Below are positions 1 to 12,697 of a stretch of DNA of 15,206 nt, one piece after another. Source of the DNA: Candidatus Hodarchaeota archaeon (GTDB lineage Archaea; Asgardarchaeota; Heimdallarchaeia; Hodarchaeales; Hodarchaeaceae). Position numbers and translations under genes: made by a program. The stretch is taken from the NCBI GenBank assembly GCA_016840285.1, contig JAEOSR010000080.1:1-15206 (forward strand), written 5' to 3'. A model generated the notes under the pieces. The model was not told the origin of the DNA. It searched no databases and saw only the letters and a list, made by a program, of their open reading frames with translations. The first letter of the stretch is position 1; every line of letters begins with the position of its first letter.

Positions 1-108
1 CCTTCAACTCCTGAGAGGGCACCTGGGATAAGAAAATTTTGCCATAATTGTGGTGCAGTAGTTGTTCCTGGAGCAAAATTTTGTAGTATGTGCGGTAGTC
101 AAGTTTAG
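1..108 (+). CDS. C-terminal fragment of a zinc-ribbon protein (5' end outside window)
   Basis: Frame 1 is open from the window edge to a TAG at 106-108, giving 35 visible residues. They contain two CxxC knuckles (C14/C17 and C28/C31) in the pattern FCxNCG...PGAKFCxxCG, typical of the short C-terminal zinc-ribbon tails (zinc_ribbon_2 type) found on many archaeal proteins of unrelated function. The Pro/Arg-rich stretch before it looks like a flexible linker to an unseen N-terminal domain. The tail says little about function, because this ribbon is usually an accessory metal-binding module. The gene converges on the minus-strand gene ending at 162, and T-rich sequence follows its stop. Confidence 0.7.
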   Translation, partial: PSTPERAPGIRKFCHNCGAVVVPGAKFCSMCGSQV

Positions 109-125
109 CTGGAAAAAACAGTAGT

Positions 126-146
126 ATTTATTTTTATTATATTATT
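126..146 (+). terminator. U-rich archaeal-type terminator after the zinc-ribbon gene
   Basis: A T-rich run (TATTTATTTTTATTATATT) lies 18 nt after the TAG of the + strand fragment, in the gap between convergent genes. Archaeal RNA polymerase terminates at such U-tracts without needing a hairpin. On the other strand a T6 tract (A6 at 113-118) could end the minus-strand gene. Confidence 0.35.
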
Positions 147-161
147 GTCGCAATAGGATGA

Positions 162-797
162 TTAGATTGAACAGAAATATGTAATTGCTCTCTTTTTTTG
201 CTCTTTTCCAATAAATCCCATTTCTTGTAGAGAATTTAAATTCTTTCTTACAACGTGCTTTTTTTCGCCACTCTCTTCCGAAATTTCCTTTATTGTACCT
301 TGTTCCAACGAGACCATGGCTAAAGCTGTCTTCTGAAGACGAGGTGGAAGTTGGAAAATTTCCCCCGTCGATAGCTTCTTACTGGGTCTAATCGATTTGG
401 AATCATCAGTACTTGTCTCGGTCTGAATGATTTCACGAAGTGTATCTTGGAAAGGTGCAAAGATACTTAGATTAGAATCCCAGTCCATTAGTACTTCGCC
501 GTATTGTTTGATAAATCGAAAACCTACCATTTGAATGATATCTTCTGGAGTTTTAGGAACATCAGTCACGAGAACAAGGCGAAAAAAACCAAAAAATCGG
601 ATATGATAAGAAAGACCTTCGATATCAATACTTTGCATTTCAGAATCTGCCTGTGTCATCTCAGTGGTCAGGTTTTGAAGTGCAGTGAGTAATCCCCCAA
701 GTAAGATAGCATCAGGAATATCCTCACTGGAATGGAAGTTCTCCGATAAAATTGTCCGACCATCATCAGATATAACATAAATTGCATAAACAATCAT
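162..797 (-). CDS. Longin-like domain / winged-helix protein, downstream paralogue
   Basis: A 211-residue protein of unassigned function. Residues 1-110 read as beta-beta-helix-beta-beta-beta-helix starting directly at the first strand (IVYAIYV, then DDGRTILSE). This order fits a longin-like fold better than a roadblock fold, which begins with a helix. A charged linker (about 115-148) leads to a C-terminal winged helix (about 150-211): LEQGTIKEISEESGE, a recognition helix around VVRKNLNSLQEMGFI, then a wing. The protein is probably a cytoplasmic DNA-binding or adaptor protein. It is the ungapped paralogue of the upstream gene (about 55% identity by eye). The ATG at 797 has a GGGTGA ribosome site (804-809) six bases away, so the start is well supported. 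A 232-nt spacer separates it from the upstream copy, so it may have its own promoter. The domain call is from secondary-structure reading only. Confidence 0.6.
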   Translation of the reverse strand: MIVYAIYVISDDGRTILSENFHSSEDIPDAILLGGLLTALQNLTTEMTQADSEMQSIDIEGLSYHIRFFGFFRLVLVTDVPKTPEDIIQMVGFRFIKQYGEVLMDWDSNLSIFAPFQDTLREIIQTETSTDDSKSIRPSKKLSTGEIFQLPPRLQKTALAMVSLEQGTIKEISEESGEKKHVVRKNLNSLQEMGFIGKEQKKRAITYFCSI

Positions 798-816
798 GTT
801 ATTTCACCCAAGACAA

Positions 817-826
817 GTTTTTAAAT
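817..826 (-). promoter_or_regulatory. Possible TATA box for the downstream longin-wHTH gene
   Basis: On the minus strand an ATTTAAAAAC element lies about 24-27 bp before the ATG at 797. That would put the transcript start at or next to the start codon, so the message would be leaderless or nearly so. A good GGGTGA ribosome site lies between the two, which argues for a longer leader from another start. Weak call. Confidence 0.25.
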
Positions 827-974
827 GCAAAATAGACAGTTTTGAACACTTGATTGCATCAGTAACTGTAGTATATCAATCATTATTCCTACTTATGAAA
901 GAAACTGAATAATTTAAAAATTCCTTTATTAGTTCGAATAGAATTATTTCAGGTTGTCTATATCGTTCTTAAGT

Positions 975-999
975 AAAAAACGAAATTAATTTAAAAAAA
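975..999 (-). terminator. Twin U-tract terminator of the minus-strand gene run
   Basis: Downstream of the TAA/TAG end of the upstream longin-wHTH gene, the minus strand carries T7 (993-999) and T6 (975-980) tracts separated by AT-rich sequence. This is the usual archaeal termination signal. It would end the long minus-strand transcript before the second longin-wHTH gene, leaving that gene to its own promoter or to read-through. Confidence 0.45.
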
Positions 1000-1029
1000 C
1001 AGTCTTGTATCTTGCCTCTGTTTCACGAA

Positions 1030-1683
1030 TTAAATTGTACAGAAATAGACAGTTTTCTTCTCCAGTTTCTTTGTACCGATGAATCCCTTCTCTTTCAGCG
1101 TTGTTAGGTTCTTTTTAATAATATTTGTTTCTTCCCCACTTTCTAGGGCTATATCAGATATTGTTCCTTCTTCTAAAGTTACCAGTGCTAAAGCTGTTGC
1201 CTGTAAATAGTGAGGTAACGCGAAAATTTCCCCTGTATTTAATCTTTTACTCGGTTTTATTGATTTAGATTCATCATAACCTACTAATTGCTTCATAATA
1301 TCCTGAATAGTAGTTTTAAAAGGATTAAAGATAGTTGAGTTAAATTCTGTTTGTGTTAAAACATCTCCATATTCATTAATGAACTGTAATCCTAACCTTT
1401 GAATAATTTCTTCAGGGGTTTTCGGGACATTCGTTACTAACACAACGCGAATCAGACCAAACGATCGGATGTGATAAGAGAGGCCTTCTATCGCGACACT
1501 TTTCATTTCTATGTCTTCTTTGGTCATGTCTTTCGTCATTCTTTGGAGTGCGGTAAATAATCCCCCAAGTAAGACTTCGTTTGGAATAACCTCTATCGAT
1601 TGAAAATTCTCTGATATGAGTGTTTTACCATCTTCAGTTAAAACATATACAGCGTATACGATCGTGCTATTCCACCTCTCCAA
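1030..1683 (-). CDS. Longin-like domain / winged-helix protein, upstream paralogue (start uncertain)
   Basis: Same architecture as the downstream copy: a longin-like N-terminal domain (IVYAVYV, EDGKTLISENF, then LLGGLFTALQ helix, EGLSYHIR strand), linker, and C-terminal winged helix (EEGTISDIALESGEE, then recognition helix IIKKNLTTLKEKGFI). Function unknown. The reading frame runs into the 3' end of the MinD-like ATPase gene, so translational coupling is likely. The TTG at 1681-1683 is the upstream-most start and gives 217 residues. However, the strong ribosome site GGAGAGGTGG (1672-1681) overlaps and follows that TTG, so it cannot serve it. The paralogue aligns from an ACG codon (1663-1665) exactly where its own ATG lies, giving 211 residues in both. 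Real initiation is therefore probably at 1665 (ACG) or nearby. I keep the longer coordinates as the conventional call. Confidence 0.6.
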   Translation of the reverse strand: MERWNSTIVYAVYVLTEDGKTLISENFQSIEVIPNEVLLGGLFTALQRMTKDMTKEDIEMKSVAIEGLSYHIRSFGLIRVVLVTNVPKTPEEIIQRLGLQFINEYGDVLTQTEFNSTIFNPFKTTIQDIMKQLVGYDESKSIKPSKRLNTGEIFALPHYLQATALALVTLEEGTISDIALESGEETNIIKKNLTTLKEKGFIGTKKLEKKTVYFCTI

Positions 1684-2524
1684 AAAATATTGGGATCAGA
1701 TCGATGAGAGTGGTGGAAAAGATGTGATCGGGTTGTTCTAAGGTATAGATAATTCGAGAAGACTCTTGCCCTTGTAAGTTCTTAACCGCTTCTTGGAATT
1801 CAATATTTTGGAGTTCAAAATCTGTAGGAATCCACCCAAGAAACTCCACTATCTTATCTCCAATGTCTGCAGTGAACCGTTTTTCAATAAGTTTTTGAAT
1901 TGATTCTTTCTTTGTTCTACTTTGAATTGCTTCGTTGGGAATGAGGTTGGCTAACACTAGAGATCTATTCTTCAATTGTTTATATAGACCAGCAATCATT
2001 TGTGATGTACCAAAGATATCTGCATTACTTAGCTTTACAATAAAAAGGCTTGAATCAGTTGCAAGCATGACGTTGACAGTAGAATATCCTGTTCCAGGTG
2101 AGCAGTCAACAATTAAGTATTCGATCTCATAAGGCTTATCTTTGATTCCTTTTTTAAGTTTAATGAGGTTTTGAAGCATCTTAATAGAGGTTTTCTGATC
2201 TATTCTAATAAGATTCTGAATTGATTCAGGAGTAGGATCCGCATAACCTACCCACAGCTTTCCTGATAAGTTAAGCATAGGAGATACATTGTGTAAACAT
2301 TTGTCCATGGTTTGTTCACCTAGCAAGTATTCATTTAACCAACTGACCTCTGGATCCTTCTGAAAAAACGTCATTATGCTAGGGCCATGGAAATCATTAT
2401 CCAATAAACAGATCCTCTTACCTACCTTTGCTAAGTGAACAGCGATATTCACTGCAATACTAGATTTGCCAACACCGCCTTTATGTGACAATATTGCTAA
2501 ACTTCTCAATGACACATTGATCAC
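1667..2524 (-). CDS. MinD/ParA/Mrp-superfamily deviant-Walker ATPase
   Basis: A 285-residue cytosolic P-loop ATPase of the SIMIBI class. It has the deviant Walker A KGGVGKS (residues 15-21, signature Lys15 and Lys20). The switch I segment LLDNDFHGPS (about 40-49) resembles the DxDxxGPS of Mrp/NBP35 proteins, and Walker B is YLIVDCSPGTG with Asp140. The CxxC of Mrp iron-sulfur carriers is absent, so an Fe-S role is not supported. The family uses ATP-driven dimerisation to position or segregate partners. The partner here is probably the longin-winged-helix protein encoded immediately downstream, whose reading frame touches or overlaps this one. The annotated start is GTG at 2522-2524. A second in-frame GTG at codon 4 (2513-2515) is equally possible and fits a TATA-like element better. 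It lies 45 nt after the helicase gene, so it is either the sixth cistron of that run or starts from its own promoter. No C-terminal membrane-targeting helix of the MinD type is evident. Confidence 0.8.
   Translation of the reverse strand: MINVSLRSLAILSHKGGVGKSSIAVNIAVHLAKVGKRICLLDNDFHGPSIMTFFQKDPEVSWLNEYLLGEQTMDKCLHNVSPMLNLSGKLWVGYADPTPESIQNLIRIDQKTSIKMLQNLIKLKKGIKDKPYEIEYLIVDCSPGTGYSTVNVMLATDSSLFIVKLSNADIFGTSQMIAGLYKQLKNRSLVLANLIPNEAIQSRTKKESIQKLIEKRFTADIGDKIVEFLGWIPTDFELQNIEFQEAVKNLQGQESSRIIYTLEQPDHIFSTTLIDLIPIFFGEVE
1672..1681 (-). promoter_or_regulatory. Ribosome binding site that argues against the TTG start of the upstream longin-wHTH gene
   Basis: GGAGAGGTGG on the minus strand lies inside the last codons of the MinD-like gene. 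It ends six bases before an ACG codon that aligns with the paralogue's ATG. It lies downstream of, and overlaps, the in-frame TTG. The MinD-like stop (TAG, 1667-1669) falls between this site and the ACG, so coupled termination and reinitiation would be natural. Confidence 0.5.
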
Positions 2525-2569: not shown

Positions 2570-4840
2570 TCATTTTTGAAGTTTTTTTCGTAATAATTCT
2601 TCTAATATAGAAATAGCAACATATTTATCCAAGGGAAAGTTTTCATTACCGCACTTAGGTGATTGCACGCAACTCGGACAGCCATCGTTGCATTCACATT
2701 CCTTAATGAGATCCAAGACATTCTTGAGCAATATATCACATTTCTCGAAAAGCTGTTCAGAAATTCCAATCCCTCCAGGAAACCCATCATAAATAAACAC
2801 CTTTGCTTTTCCGTCCACGGGAAAACTAGGATAAGAAGTTCCACCAATGTCCCATCGGTCACACATTGCATATATTGGGGATAATGCAATGGTAGCATGT
2901 TCCATTGCATGAATTCCTCCAGGAAAGTCAAGAGCATCTTGTTGGATACGATCAACGATTTCATGGGGGATCTCGATCCAAAGAGCTTTTGTTTTGAATT
3001 CTAGGGAAGGTAAATCAAGTGGTAAGATCTCAAGAACTTCATCAAATGTCTTTTTCCGATAGGAATGATATAATTCAGTAACTTTAACTTCTCCAAAGAA
3101 AAGAGGAAATCCAATATCCTTGTTTAAGAGTGTTTTTAGTACTGTAACCTCTGAGGTACTTAATGCATCTGTGTAGTAATCAACTTCAATAGGAGATGCA
3201 ACTGCCTTCTTTTTTCTAAGATTTAACGTTTCAACCAAGTAAGTTTCCCCTTGATGGATCAGGATGGCTCCTTCATGCGCTTCACGATAAGCTTGTGTGA
3301 TACTCATTGTTTCCAAAAGATTTCCTTGGACCAAAACTTCAATAATTTCTGTGAAGGCAGAATTAAGACTTATCACTGACGCTGGTCTTTTGGGGGAACT
3401 GCTAGTTAATCCAGCAGGAACAATCTTGACCAATTCTTCCTGTTTCAATTCTTGGACAATTTCTTTCCCTTGATCCCCCCAGATTTGCTGAATTTCGTTT
3501 AATGTTAAAGGAAGTTCCGCGGTGGCACAAAGGATATGGCCTTTCAATATATAGGGGTTAGCTAGATCAATGATTGCATTTTCAGGATTCTTTTCGAGGA
3601 AATAGTCTGGATGTTTTCCGAGAAATTGCTGGAGGGGATCTTCAAACAGAATTAGAGTAGCTAATGAAGGTCGTAGTGTCCTTCCAACCCTGCCTATTTG
3701 TTGCCAGGTGGAAATTATGGTTCCAGGAAACCCTGATAATAATACAGCATCTAAATTACCAATATCGATTCCGACTTCTAAGGCATTAGTAGAAACAACA
3801 GCCTGAATCTCACGATTTCGTAATTTGTTTTCAATTTCACGACGTTCTAAGGGGCGATAGCCTGCACGATAGGACTTCACTTGATCATGGTCTAGTCGAT
3901 GATTTTTAAGATCTTGTTTTACCCACATTGAAACCAGTTCTGCCATTCGACGGGATAGTGTGAAACAAAGGGTTTGGTAATCAGCTTTGAGATGCTGAAG
4001 TAGTAGATCACGAGTTTCTTGATGAGGAGAACGCTTTCTCAACTTGTATCGATCAACATAGGGAGGATTCCATAATATAAGATGTTTCTTACCATATTCC
4101 GCCCCGTCGTTTCTAATAATTTCGACTGGCTTTCCAATGAGTTTTGTAATAAATTCCTTAGGATTATTAATGGTAGCAGATGAGAGAATGTACTGGGGAA
4201 TGGATCCATAGTGATTGATTATACGATTTAATCGTCGAAGTAGTTGAGCGACATTGGAGCCAAAAACTCCTCTATATTGGTGAGCTTCGTCTATCACGAT
4301 AAACCTCAAATTTCTGAAAAATCTATCCCATTTCTGATGCCAATCCAAATATTGATGCAATGCATATGGATTGGAGATTACTGCATGAGCAAGATTCCGA
4401 ATTTGAGGTCGTTGCTTAGTAGGAGTATCTCCATCATAAATATAGGGACGTAATCGTCCATTTAACACTTCATTGAATTCTTCTAGCTTCTTTAATTGGT
4501 CATTTGCGAGAGCTTTTGTTGGGTATAGGAATAGTGCGGTCACTGCTCGTTTTCGAGCTACCGCATTTGCAACGGAAAGAGAGAAAATTAGTGTTTTCCC
4601 CGAAGCTGTGGGTGTTGTTATCACTACATTTTTCCCTTTGTGAATAGTATTCAAAGCTTCAGCTTGATGAGAAAATAATTTCAATTGATTTTGTTCTAAC
4701 CAATCCGTCAATTCTGGTTCTAATTCGAAGTCAAGATTTCCAAAATTTGCCGTTTTAGCGGGAATTGTTGTCTTAAATATCATCTGTCGCCGATAAGAGG
4801 AGTGAGCTTCAATATCGTTAAGAAATTCTTCAATCTTCAT
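2570..4840 (-). CDS. MrfA/Hrq1-family superfamily 2 DNA helicase with C-terminal zinc-binding (DUF1998/MZB) domain
   Basis: A 756-residue ATP-dependent 3'-5' DNA helicase family member. The motor motifs are in order: LFSHQAEAL (about 55-63), Walker A TPTASGKT (76-83), motif Ia YPTKALANDQ (106-115), DEAH (184-187), SAT (221-223), and in lobe 2 STNALEVGIDIG and QQIGRVGRTLR. The C-terminal domain has the family's YDGFPGGIGI segment and a Cys cluster, C715/C717/C721/C724/C730 in the pattern CxCxxxCPSCxxxxxC, which in MrfA binds zinc. Bacterial MrfA (YprA) and yeast Hrq1 act in interstrand-crosslink and bulky-lesion repair. The yeast RecQ4-like assignment is by homology only. Length is normal and no motif is missing. 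The gene lies 21 nt after rad50 and 45 nt before the MinD-like gene, so it is probably co-transcribed with the resection genes. The ATG at 4840 has a weak AGTGAG ribosome site. Confidence 0.85.
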   Translation of the reverse strand: MKIEEFLNDIEAHSSYRRQMIFKTTIPAKTANFGNLDFELEPELTDWLEQNQLKLFSHQAEALNTIHKGKNVVITTPTASGKTLIFSLSVANAVARKRAVTALFLYPTKALANDQLKKLEEFNEVLNGRLRPYIYDGDTPTKQRPQIRNLAHAVISNPYALHQYLDWHQKWDRFFRNLRFIVIDEAHQYRGVFGSNVAQLLRRLNRIINHYGSIPQYILSSATINNPKEFITKLIGKPVEIIRNDGAEYGKKHLILWNPPYVDRYKLRKRSPHQETRDLLLQHLKADYQTLCFTLSRRMAELVSMWVKQDLKNHRLDHDQVKSYRAGYRPLERREIENKLRNREIQAVVSTNALEVGIDIGNLDAVLLSGFPGTIISTWQQIGRVGRTLRPSLATLILFEDPLQQFLGKHPDYFLEKNPENAIIDLANPYILKGHILCATAELPLTLNEIQQIWGDQGKEIVQELKQEELVKIVPAGLTSSSPKRPASVISLNSAFTEIIEVLVQGNLLETMSITQAYREAHEGAILIHQGETYLVETLNLRKKKAVASPIEVDYYTDALSTSEVTVLKTLLNKDIGFPLFFGEVKVTELYHSYRKKTFDEVLEILPLDLPSLEFKTKALWIEIPHEIVDRIQQDALDFPGGIHAMEHATIALSPIYAMCDRWDIGGTSYPSFPVDGKAKVFIYDGFPGGIGISEQLFEKCDILLKNVLDLIKECECNDGCPSCVQSPKCGNENFPLDKYVAISILEELLRKKLQK

Positions 4841-11479: not shown

Positions 11480-12697
11480 ATGATTGAAAATAACCAAGGA
11501 TCACAACTTGAAAAAGAATTCAAAAAAGGAAAAATACCTTTTGCAATAGATAAAGACTACCATAGATTTTCCGAAAGGGACACAATTTTTGCTCGAGTTG
11601 TATGGGATGAATCATATTCATCTCACATGCGTCCCATAACAGAACGTGCACCTAAAAAAGTAGGCAAGGAAGGGTATAGTCGTATCGGTTATGCTGCTCA
11701 AGAAGCTTCTTGGACAATATATGATCATTTTAACGGAGCTTTTGATTGGAATAGTGCTGGAGGGAACAGTGATAAGAAGATTCTTCCAACACAGCTATTC
11801 AACATTTTACCTAAATTAGAGTCAACTGACATCAAGACAAACACCGAATTAGTCAAACGAGTAGGCCAAATATTTGGTGCATGCAAGGTAGGAATTGCCA
11901 AACTTGACCCCGAGCTTCCTTTTATTTACACACATAATCGTAGAAACGAACCAATAAATTTTCCAGAAGAAGTGAAATATGCGATTGTTATGCTGATTGA
12001 GATGGACTATTATGCCCTGAAAACATCACCAGCTCTTCCATCAAGTATTACAACTGGAAATGGTTACTCAAGAATGGCATTTGCCATCGCTTGTATGGCG
12101 GAATTTTTACGAAAATTAGGATATTATGCAGTTCCATCTGGTAACGATACAGGGCTATCGGTCCCTTTAGCTGTTGAAGCAGGTCTTGGACAATTTGGGC
12201 GTAATGGCCTCTTAATAAACCCCAAGTATGGACAAAGGGTGCGAATATGTAAAGTATTCACTGATTTACCATTAAAGCCTGATAAACCAGTAGATTTCGG
12301 TGTTACTCAATTTTGTAGAGTATGTAAAAAATGTGCTAAATCCTGTCCGTCACAATCTATACCTCATGAAACAGATCCTACTTGGAAAACTCCATGGAAT
12401 ACTATCTCAAACAATAATGGAACTTATAAATGGTATGTTAATGTGGAAACTTGTTATGACTATTGGGTAAAGAATTCTGCTGATTGCTCAAATTGCATTC
12501 GTGTTTGTCCGTTTACTAAACCCCCAGGATTCAGTCATGATATCGCTCGTTTTTTCATAAAACACTTTAGATTTTTAGATCGAATGTGGTTATGGATAGA
12601 TGATCTTATGGCAAAGTTCCCTTGGTGGAGGTACGGGAAAAAAGAGAACGCTGACAAGTTCTGGAAATCAAATAAATATCTAGGGAAAAAGATGTAG
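11480..12697 (+). CDS. Reductive dehalogenase homologue (corrinoid, two 4Fe-4S clusters), no Tat signal
   Basis: A 405-residue RdhA-family protein; characterised members remove halogens reductively from organohalides using a corrinoid. Two ferredoxin-like clusters are complete: C279, C282, C285 and C289 (CxxCxxCxxxCP), then C325, C336, C339 and C343 (C-x10-C-xx-C-xxx-CP). The corrinoid/active-site region contains Y196 (GYSRM), N222 (PSGNDT) and R255. Their spacing of 26 and 33 residues equals that of Tyr246/Asn272/Arg305 in PceA, so the active site looks intact. The N-terminus (MIENNQGSQLEKEF) has no RR motif or hydrophobic stretch, so the protein is probably cytoplasmic, and no RdhB membrane anchor is present in the window. 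The real substrate and electron donor cannot be told; a non-respiratory or non-halogen role is possible. An in-frame TGA at 11471-11473 makes the ATG at 11480 the first possible ATG. No clear ribosome site is present. Confidence 0.8.
   Translation: MIENNQGSQLEKEFKKGKIPFAIDKDYHRFSERDTIFARVVWDESYSSHMRPITERAPKKVGKEGYSRIGYAAQEASWTIYDHFNGAFDWNSAGGNSDKKILPTQLFNILPKLESTDIKTNTELVKRVGQIFGACKVGIAKLDPELPFIYTHNRRNEPINFPEEVKYAIVMLIEMDYYALKTSPALPSSITTGNGYSRMAFAIACMAEFLRKLGYYAVPSGNDTGLSVPLAVEAGLGQFGRNGLLINPKYGQRVRICKVFTDLPLKPDKPVDFGVTQFCRVCKKCAKSCPSQSIPHETDPTWKTPWNTISNNNGTYKWYVNVETCYDYWVKNSADCSNCIRVCPFTKPPGFSHDIARFFIKHFRFLDRMWLWIDDLMAKFPWWRYGKKENADKFWKSNKYLGKKM

Follow-up and report, generated by a model that had tools for sequence, protein, structure and literature searches.

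A MinD/ParA-type ATPase and its longin–winged-helix partners, a candidate two-gene module of Asgard archaea

On a 15,206-nucleotide (nt) contig of a Candidatus Hodarchaeota archaeon (GenBank assembly GCA_016840285.1, contig JAEOSR010000080.1; the whole of this stretch is called the window below), the gene for a MinD/ParA-type ATPase is followed on the same strand by genes for two related proteins, partners A and B, each predicted to join a longin domain to a winged helix. The ATPase frame (285 amino acids (aa)) occupies positions 1667..2524 (-) with a GTG start as listed, some relatives beginning 3-5 codons further in, and its deviant Walker A motif, SHKGGVGKS (residues 13-21), lies at 2462..2488 (-). 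The frame of partner A (1030..1683 (-), 217 aa counted from a TTG) encodes the longin domain at 1282..1662 (-) (residues 8-134) and the winged helix at 1033..1239 (-) (residues 149-217). Its beginning overlaps the 3' end of the ATPase gene at 1667..1683 (-), a segment containing GGAGAGGTGG, judged by eye to be Shine-Dalgarno-like. Partner B, a second longin–winged-helix protein of 211 aa, is encoded at 162..797 (-).

The ATPase belongs to the MinD/ParA superfamily. It carries the KGGxGK[ST] form of the deviant Walker A motif with the signature lysine (K15-G-G-V-G-K20), residues S13, K15, G16, G17, V18, G19 and K20 are unchanged across 45 aligned sequences, and its match to Pfam ParA/AAA_31 exceeds the cut-off; on the NCBIfam model TIGR01969 (minD_arch) it scores 43.8 bits, under the required 201.75. 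From the intact motif we infer that the protein may dimerise with ATP. The membrane-targeting tail of MinD sits near residues 256-270, and the last residue of the ATPase model, 285, aligns with MinD residue 250-251, so that no MinD-type C-terminal tail is present on the window ATPase. In this it differs from the MinD of the MinC/MinE system, and partners A and B are presumably unlike MinC and MinE as well. For the partners, structure prediction gives a longin fold (b2-a-b3-a-a) followed by a winged helix, and the deviant-Walker ATPase and two-domain partner that a sequence-only reading of the window had proposed are both upheld. Across 29 diverse partners, Pfam matches at an expectation value (E) of up to 0.1 were to Longin in 5/29 and to Fuz_longin_1 in 9/29, while the TrmB family (PF01978) gives 25.2 bits for copy B and 24.2 bits for copy A, barely under its cut-off of 25.6.

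Relatives that name an organism are all from Asgard archaea, both for the 64 partner relatives and among the best 120 of 168 ATPase relatives, as are the organism-naming matches among the best 120 of 212 obtained when divergent partners were used in a profile search. Of the relatives with a name, the closest is the 4.94-megabase (Mb) chromosome record CP070695.1 of Ca. Heimdallarchaeota bin6 (locus L001, genome G001). Linkage was counted over 38 ATPase places, termed tier 1, that match an Asgard ATPase profile at E <=1e-74 in 227 genomes of the phylum of G001. The profile was built mainly from partner-linked ATPases, at most 10 candidates were scored per genome, and the threshold was chosen once the gap to the next match (1.6e-65) had become apparent; a contig-end fragment, G003:C11 (3.2e-48), falls outside tier 1. 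A longin–winged-helix gene lies directly downstream on the same strand in 33 of the 38, two of these genes being cut by a contig end (G216:C117 and G048:C202), and the conserved linkage anticipated from the window alone is thus supported. Elsewhere in tier 1, G037:C88 has a diverged longin–winged-helix version downstream (E 5e-17), G048:C173 has a 238-aa winged-helix-containing gene upstream, and in G044:C12, G049:C162 and G050:C227 the ATPase is fused to a Roc/Ras-like GTPase. No longin–winged-helix neighbour was found beside these three fusions, of which G044:C12 and G049:C162 run off the contig end. Fusions of this kind span L094 9761-12469, L095 2-1738 and L096 2-1705; the only complete one (L094, 902 aa) also matches DUF4145 close to the C-terminus. 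From the ATPase stop to the conserved partner start the distance has a median of 1 nt, is <=20 nt in 31/34 pairs and reaches a maximum of 200 nt (window included). The two proteins also diverge in a correlated manner: over 31 pairs, ATPase and partner distances give r 0.90, and none of 5000 permutations was as high (permutation maximum 0.32). A search for a plasmid origin returned no blastn match, and the 44 loci from viral contigs held only distant ParA-like proteins with 21-54% identity, mostly across the P-loop.

The second copy is likewise a genuine member of the family, as had been claimed. Partner B and a copy near 942 kilobases (kb) in CP070695.1, ca. 10 kb beyond the pair there, are orthologs (identity 94% in the longin and 90% in the winged helix), as are partner A and the ATPase-linked copy of that record (84% and 87%). 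With four full-length partner frames, G001 has one tier-1 ATPase. Because paralogues differ most in segments that orthologues conserve better (residues ~121-143, 184-199 and 48-61), the alignments suggest that several adaptors with different targets may serve a single ATPase. The recognition helix as the sole hot spot of paralogue divergence was considered and rejected, since residues ~121-143 diverge equally or more. Partner starts vary too. Relatives of partner A mostly start right before a conserved IVYA, at a position where ATG predominates and some have TTG or GTG; in partner A and in its ortholog from L001 the codon there is ACG (window 1663-1665 (-); L118 1940-1942 (+)), the alternative to the TTG start given above. 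In the 942-kb copy of G001, the stretch from the preceding stop to IVYA lacks ATG, GTG and TTG alike; partner B of the window has an ATG there. Such starts may be non-standard or, for the 942-kb copy, may mark a silenced gene.

Related winged helices occur beside more distant ATPases, of which 52, almost all from the tier-search list, were examined together with their neighbours. In 27 of the 52 the ATPase adjoins a gene with the same winged helix and a different N-terminus (by visual inspection of the sequence, a coiled coil or something else); 25 of these genes are upstream on the same strand, one is convergent (L193) and one divergent (L206). The longin-partner profile found 19 of the 27, and 8 were found only with a second profile, of which four (L194, L206, L213 and L216) are themselves members. 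An hhalign comparison of the two sets of winged helices (probability 98, E 2.6e-14) supports their homology, and the N-termini of the partners are exchangeable. At L209 and L215 the upstream neighbour appears ribbon-helix-helix-like by eye, with weak helix-turn-helix (HTH) matches in Pfam (L215 only), and for 12/52 no longin or winged-helix-type neighbour was recognised, at least one of these loci, L188, being cut at its upstream end. There is also a longin–winged-helix protein starting MIQ.IYIL.ADSGLCVLD (L122 4995-5606, L123 and L124), beside which these three loci hold no ATPase match; matches of like score occur in many genomes (G180-G226).

Longin genes adjoin further ATPases. In nine sampled genomes (G180-G225) a longin gene of ~440 aa lies directly upstream of the ATPase in 9/9, and a second of ~310 aa is present in 8/9. 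The resulting three-gene set, ~310-aa longin, ~440-aa longin and MinD/ParA ATPase, is conserved at L208, L210, L211, L214 and L228-L231. The one shorter protein scanned (316 aa) has weak Pfam matches to INTU/CCZ1 (E 9e-4) and FUZ/MON1 (E 0.009); its 442-aa neighbour has no Pfam longin match. In G049 and G050 the gene after the ATPase encodes 416 aa, in which a MinD-type domain lacking a recognisable Walker A motif is joined to a C-terminal longin; genes for such MinD–longin fusions lie directly downstream of a MinD/ParA ATPase at L203 3264-4511 and L204 1179-2426. Because longin genes adjoin further ATPases and a MinD–longin fusion exists, contact between longin and ATPase is favoured, only indirectly. 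On a 91-row ATPase tree, whose deep joins are unsure owing to long branches, the two-longin, Roc-fusion and MinD–longin groups are each set apart by a starred branch, and the label of a downstream longin–winged-helix gene requires 5 changes against a shuffled mean of 27.6. The two-longin group joins near the longin–winged-helix rows by an open fork, and independent origins are not supported.

It is quite possible, at close to an even chance, that the two genes make up a SegAB/ParA-like ATPase-adaptor module in Asgard archaea, which probably acts as a switch (the ATPase) and an adaptor (the longin–winged-helix protein). In such a module, ATP-bound ATPase dimers would be engaged and reset by the adaptor, whose longin half would probably dimerise it and recognise a cargo or receptor, and whose winged helix, common to the partners of related Asgard ATPases, would contact the ATPase and/or DNA. 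ATP hydrolysis stimulated by the adaptor would then position or segregate DNA or membrane-linked cargo, and extra partner copies such as B could let a single ATPase serve several sites. The layout is that of SegAB of Sulfolobus, in which segB is downstream and the genes overlap, and where SegB is described as an archaea-specific, site-specific DNA-binding protein acting at palindromes upstream (PMC5120986). The pNOB8 AspA-ParB-ParA system likewise links an ATPase gene to a gene for a winged-helix protein, but its gene order is reversed relative to the Asgard pair. Profile matches to AspA are weak, with E 0.005-0.01 among partners of other ATPases and 0.02-0.2 among the longin partners; AspA is not known to contain a longin. 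No ParB was seen among the window genes scanned, just 161 nt of the window lying downstream of copy B. SegB is a ribbon-helix-helix protein, whereas the Asgard partner is predicted to be a longin plus a winged helix.

Several observations weigh against this interpretation. The folds closest to the predicted ATPase model are FleN and MinD, not ParA (structure-match ranks <=1 Z unit apart are treated as tied). The distance correlation owes part of its strength to species kinship, nearest neighbours agree between ATPase and partner in 23/31 pairs, and quartets of paralogues agree in only 11/21, with 5/5 agreeing where both differences exceed 0.4, a cut picked afterwards. On the G001 contig the pair lies at 930 kb, more than 500 kb from every one of the four Orc1/Cdc6 genes, and two other ATPases there, at ~131 kb and 3.75 Mb, adjoin small HTH-type genes, so that the pair is not the sole segregation candidate of this genome. 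In contrast to SegAB with its upstream palindromes, no inverted repeat met the search settings in the spacer between A and B. Those seen close to the start of the ATPase gene and in relatives are either short or imperfect, with no motif in common; single cases include a palindrome of 12 nt (83%) at 2536-2555 and one of 17 nt (82%) in L119. No operator-like site was found to be shared among the six regions covered, namely the spacer between A and B, the surroundings of the ATPase start, window 1-165 and the upstream regions in L001, L118 and L119. The winged helix itself has a mean net charge of -1.6 (range -7 to 6) and a mean isoelectric point (pI) of 6.2 over 35 aligned partner sequences; over the 29 diverse members the charge runs from -8 to +8 and is <=0 in 19/29, with -1 for copy A and +3 for copy B of the window. 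The 16 partners of other Asgard ATPases have a mean charge of +3.9 and a mean pI of 9.2. The DNA binding inferred for the winged helix in the sequence-only reading is unproven.

The match to the FleN fold raises the thought of a transcription switch like that of FleN and FleQ, in which a winged-helix regulator with a signal-sensing longin is blocked or released by ATP-dependent binding of the ATPase and nothing is moved. We regard this as somewhat unlikely: MinD is within ca. 1 Z unit of FleN, and neutral or acidic winged helices would be odd in a DNA-binding regulator. Compared with FleN/FlhG and FleQ, moreover, the Asgard partner is a longin and winged helix that lacks the AAA+ domain of FleQ, to which partners A and B have no match, and paralogues differ at residues ~121-143 at least as much as at the recognition helix, and at 48-61 to a similar degree.

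A frequently acidic winged helix would fit a different role, that of a protein-protein domain as in ESCRT-II, in an adaptor whose longin docks Ras-like GTPases (as in TRAPP, Ragulator and SRX), so that the ATPase reads or resets membrane sites marked by a GTPase. This agrees with the longin fold itself, with its matches to eukaryotic families of GTPase regulators (Fuz/MON1/HPS1 in 9/29 partners, best E 9.9e-5) and to BET5 in the PDB (E 0.0014), with the Roc/Ras-like GTPase fused to 3/38 tier-1 ATPases, and with an Arf/Rag-like GTPase protein encoded ~4.4 kb from one ATPase-partner pair. However, the Roc fusion may replace the longin rather than mirror it (the downstream side is visible only in G050:C227), the ATPase has no MinD-type membrane tail, and Asgard genomes are rich in such GTPases (PMC10933270); the idea thus appears unlikely to us. 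In the Arf/Rag-like protein (L113 2956-4824), the GTPase is preceded by a start that to the eye resembles a longin and followed by a weak HTH match at the C-terminus.

Known Asgard longin and roadblock proteins include the Lokiarchaeota longin 8yqg and the longin-GTPase fusions of PMC10933270. Passages on Asgard longins in PMC11188069 and PMC10933270 associate them mainly with small GTPases, and also with ESCRT-linked proteins, and none of these passages mentions a link to MinD/ParA ATPases. It is a doubtful but wider conjecture that the coupling of MinD/ParA ATPases to longin platforms is widespread in Asgard archaea, with a GTPase- or membrane-borne signal steering ATP-driven positioning or segregation. 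If true, this would be a positioning system in which a motor of bacterial type is combined with an adaptor of eukaryotic type, known to date only from Asgard archaea. In eukaryotes the longin fold serves Rab, Rag and Arf GTPases on membranes, and the pair hints that, among the archaeal relatives of eukaryotes, longins may have worked in positioning driven by ATPases. To our knowledge, chromosome segregation and cargo placement in Asgard archaea are barely known, and the conserved pair offers biochemistry a concrete two-protein system. The sequence-only reading could name no such partner, and no description of a MinD/ParA ATPase paired with a longin–winged-helix protein was found among the literature matches listed, subscription papers lying largely outside that scope and possibly holding one.

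Upstream of the pair, the minus strand of the window carries nurA, herA, mre11, rad50 and a TIGR03817/MrfA-like helicase (2570-4840 (-), score under the NCBIfam cut-off), followed by the ATPase, partner A and partner B. The gene order from nurA down to partner A is retained in CP070695.1, where one more partner copy stands between the helicase and ATPase genes. These neighbours had prompted the hint of a role in genome maintenance, as an accessory in DNA-end processing with HerA, NurA, Mre11 and Rad50, and the genes are indeed contiguous in the window and L001, while mre11, rad50 and a helicase precede the pair in L003 too. Of the 22 pair loci whose upstream DNA extends for >=5 kb (five further pairs are outside the count), however, 19 have no blastp match at 1e-8 to the five proteins. 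The nuclease and helicase genes are thus confined to 3/22 loci, namely the window, L001 and L003, the latter two being the window's nearest rows in the ATPase tree, and the hint did not hold: the link was rejected as a general feature, and an accessory of this kind is highly improbable. Elsewhere in the window, a reductive-dehalogenase-family protein is encoded at 11480-12697 (+) (NCBIfam TIGR02486, 222 bits against a cut-off of 160), followed by a 2-hydroxyacid dehydrogenase-like gene.
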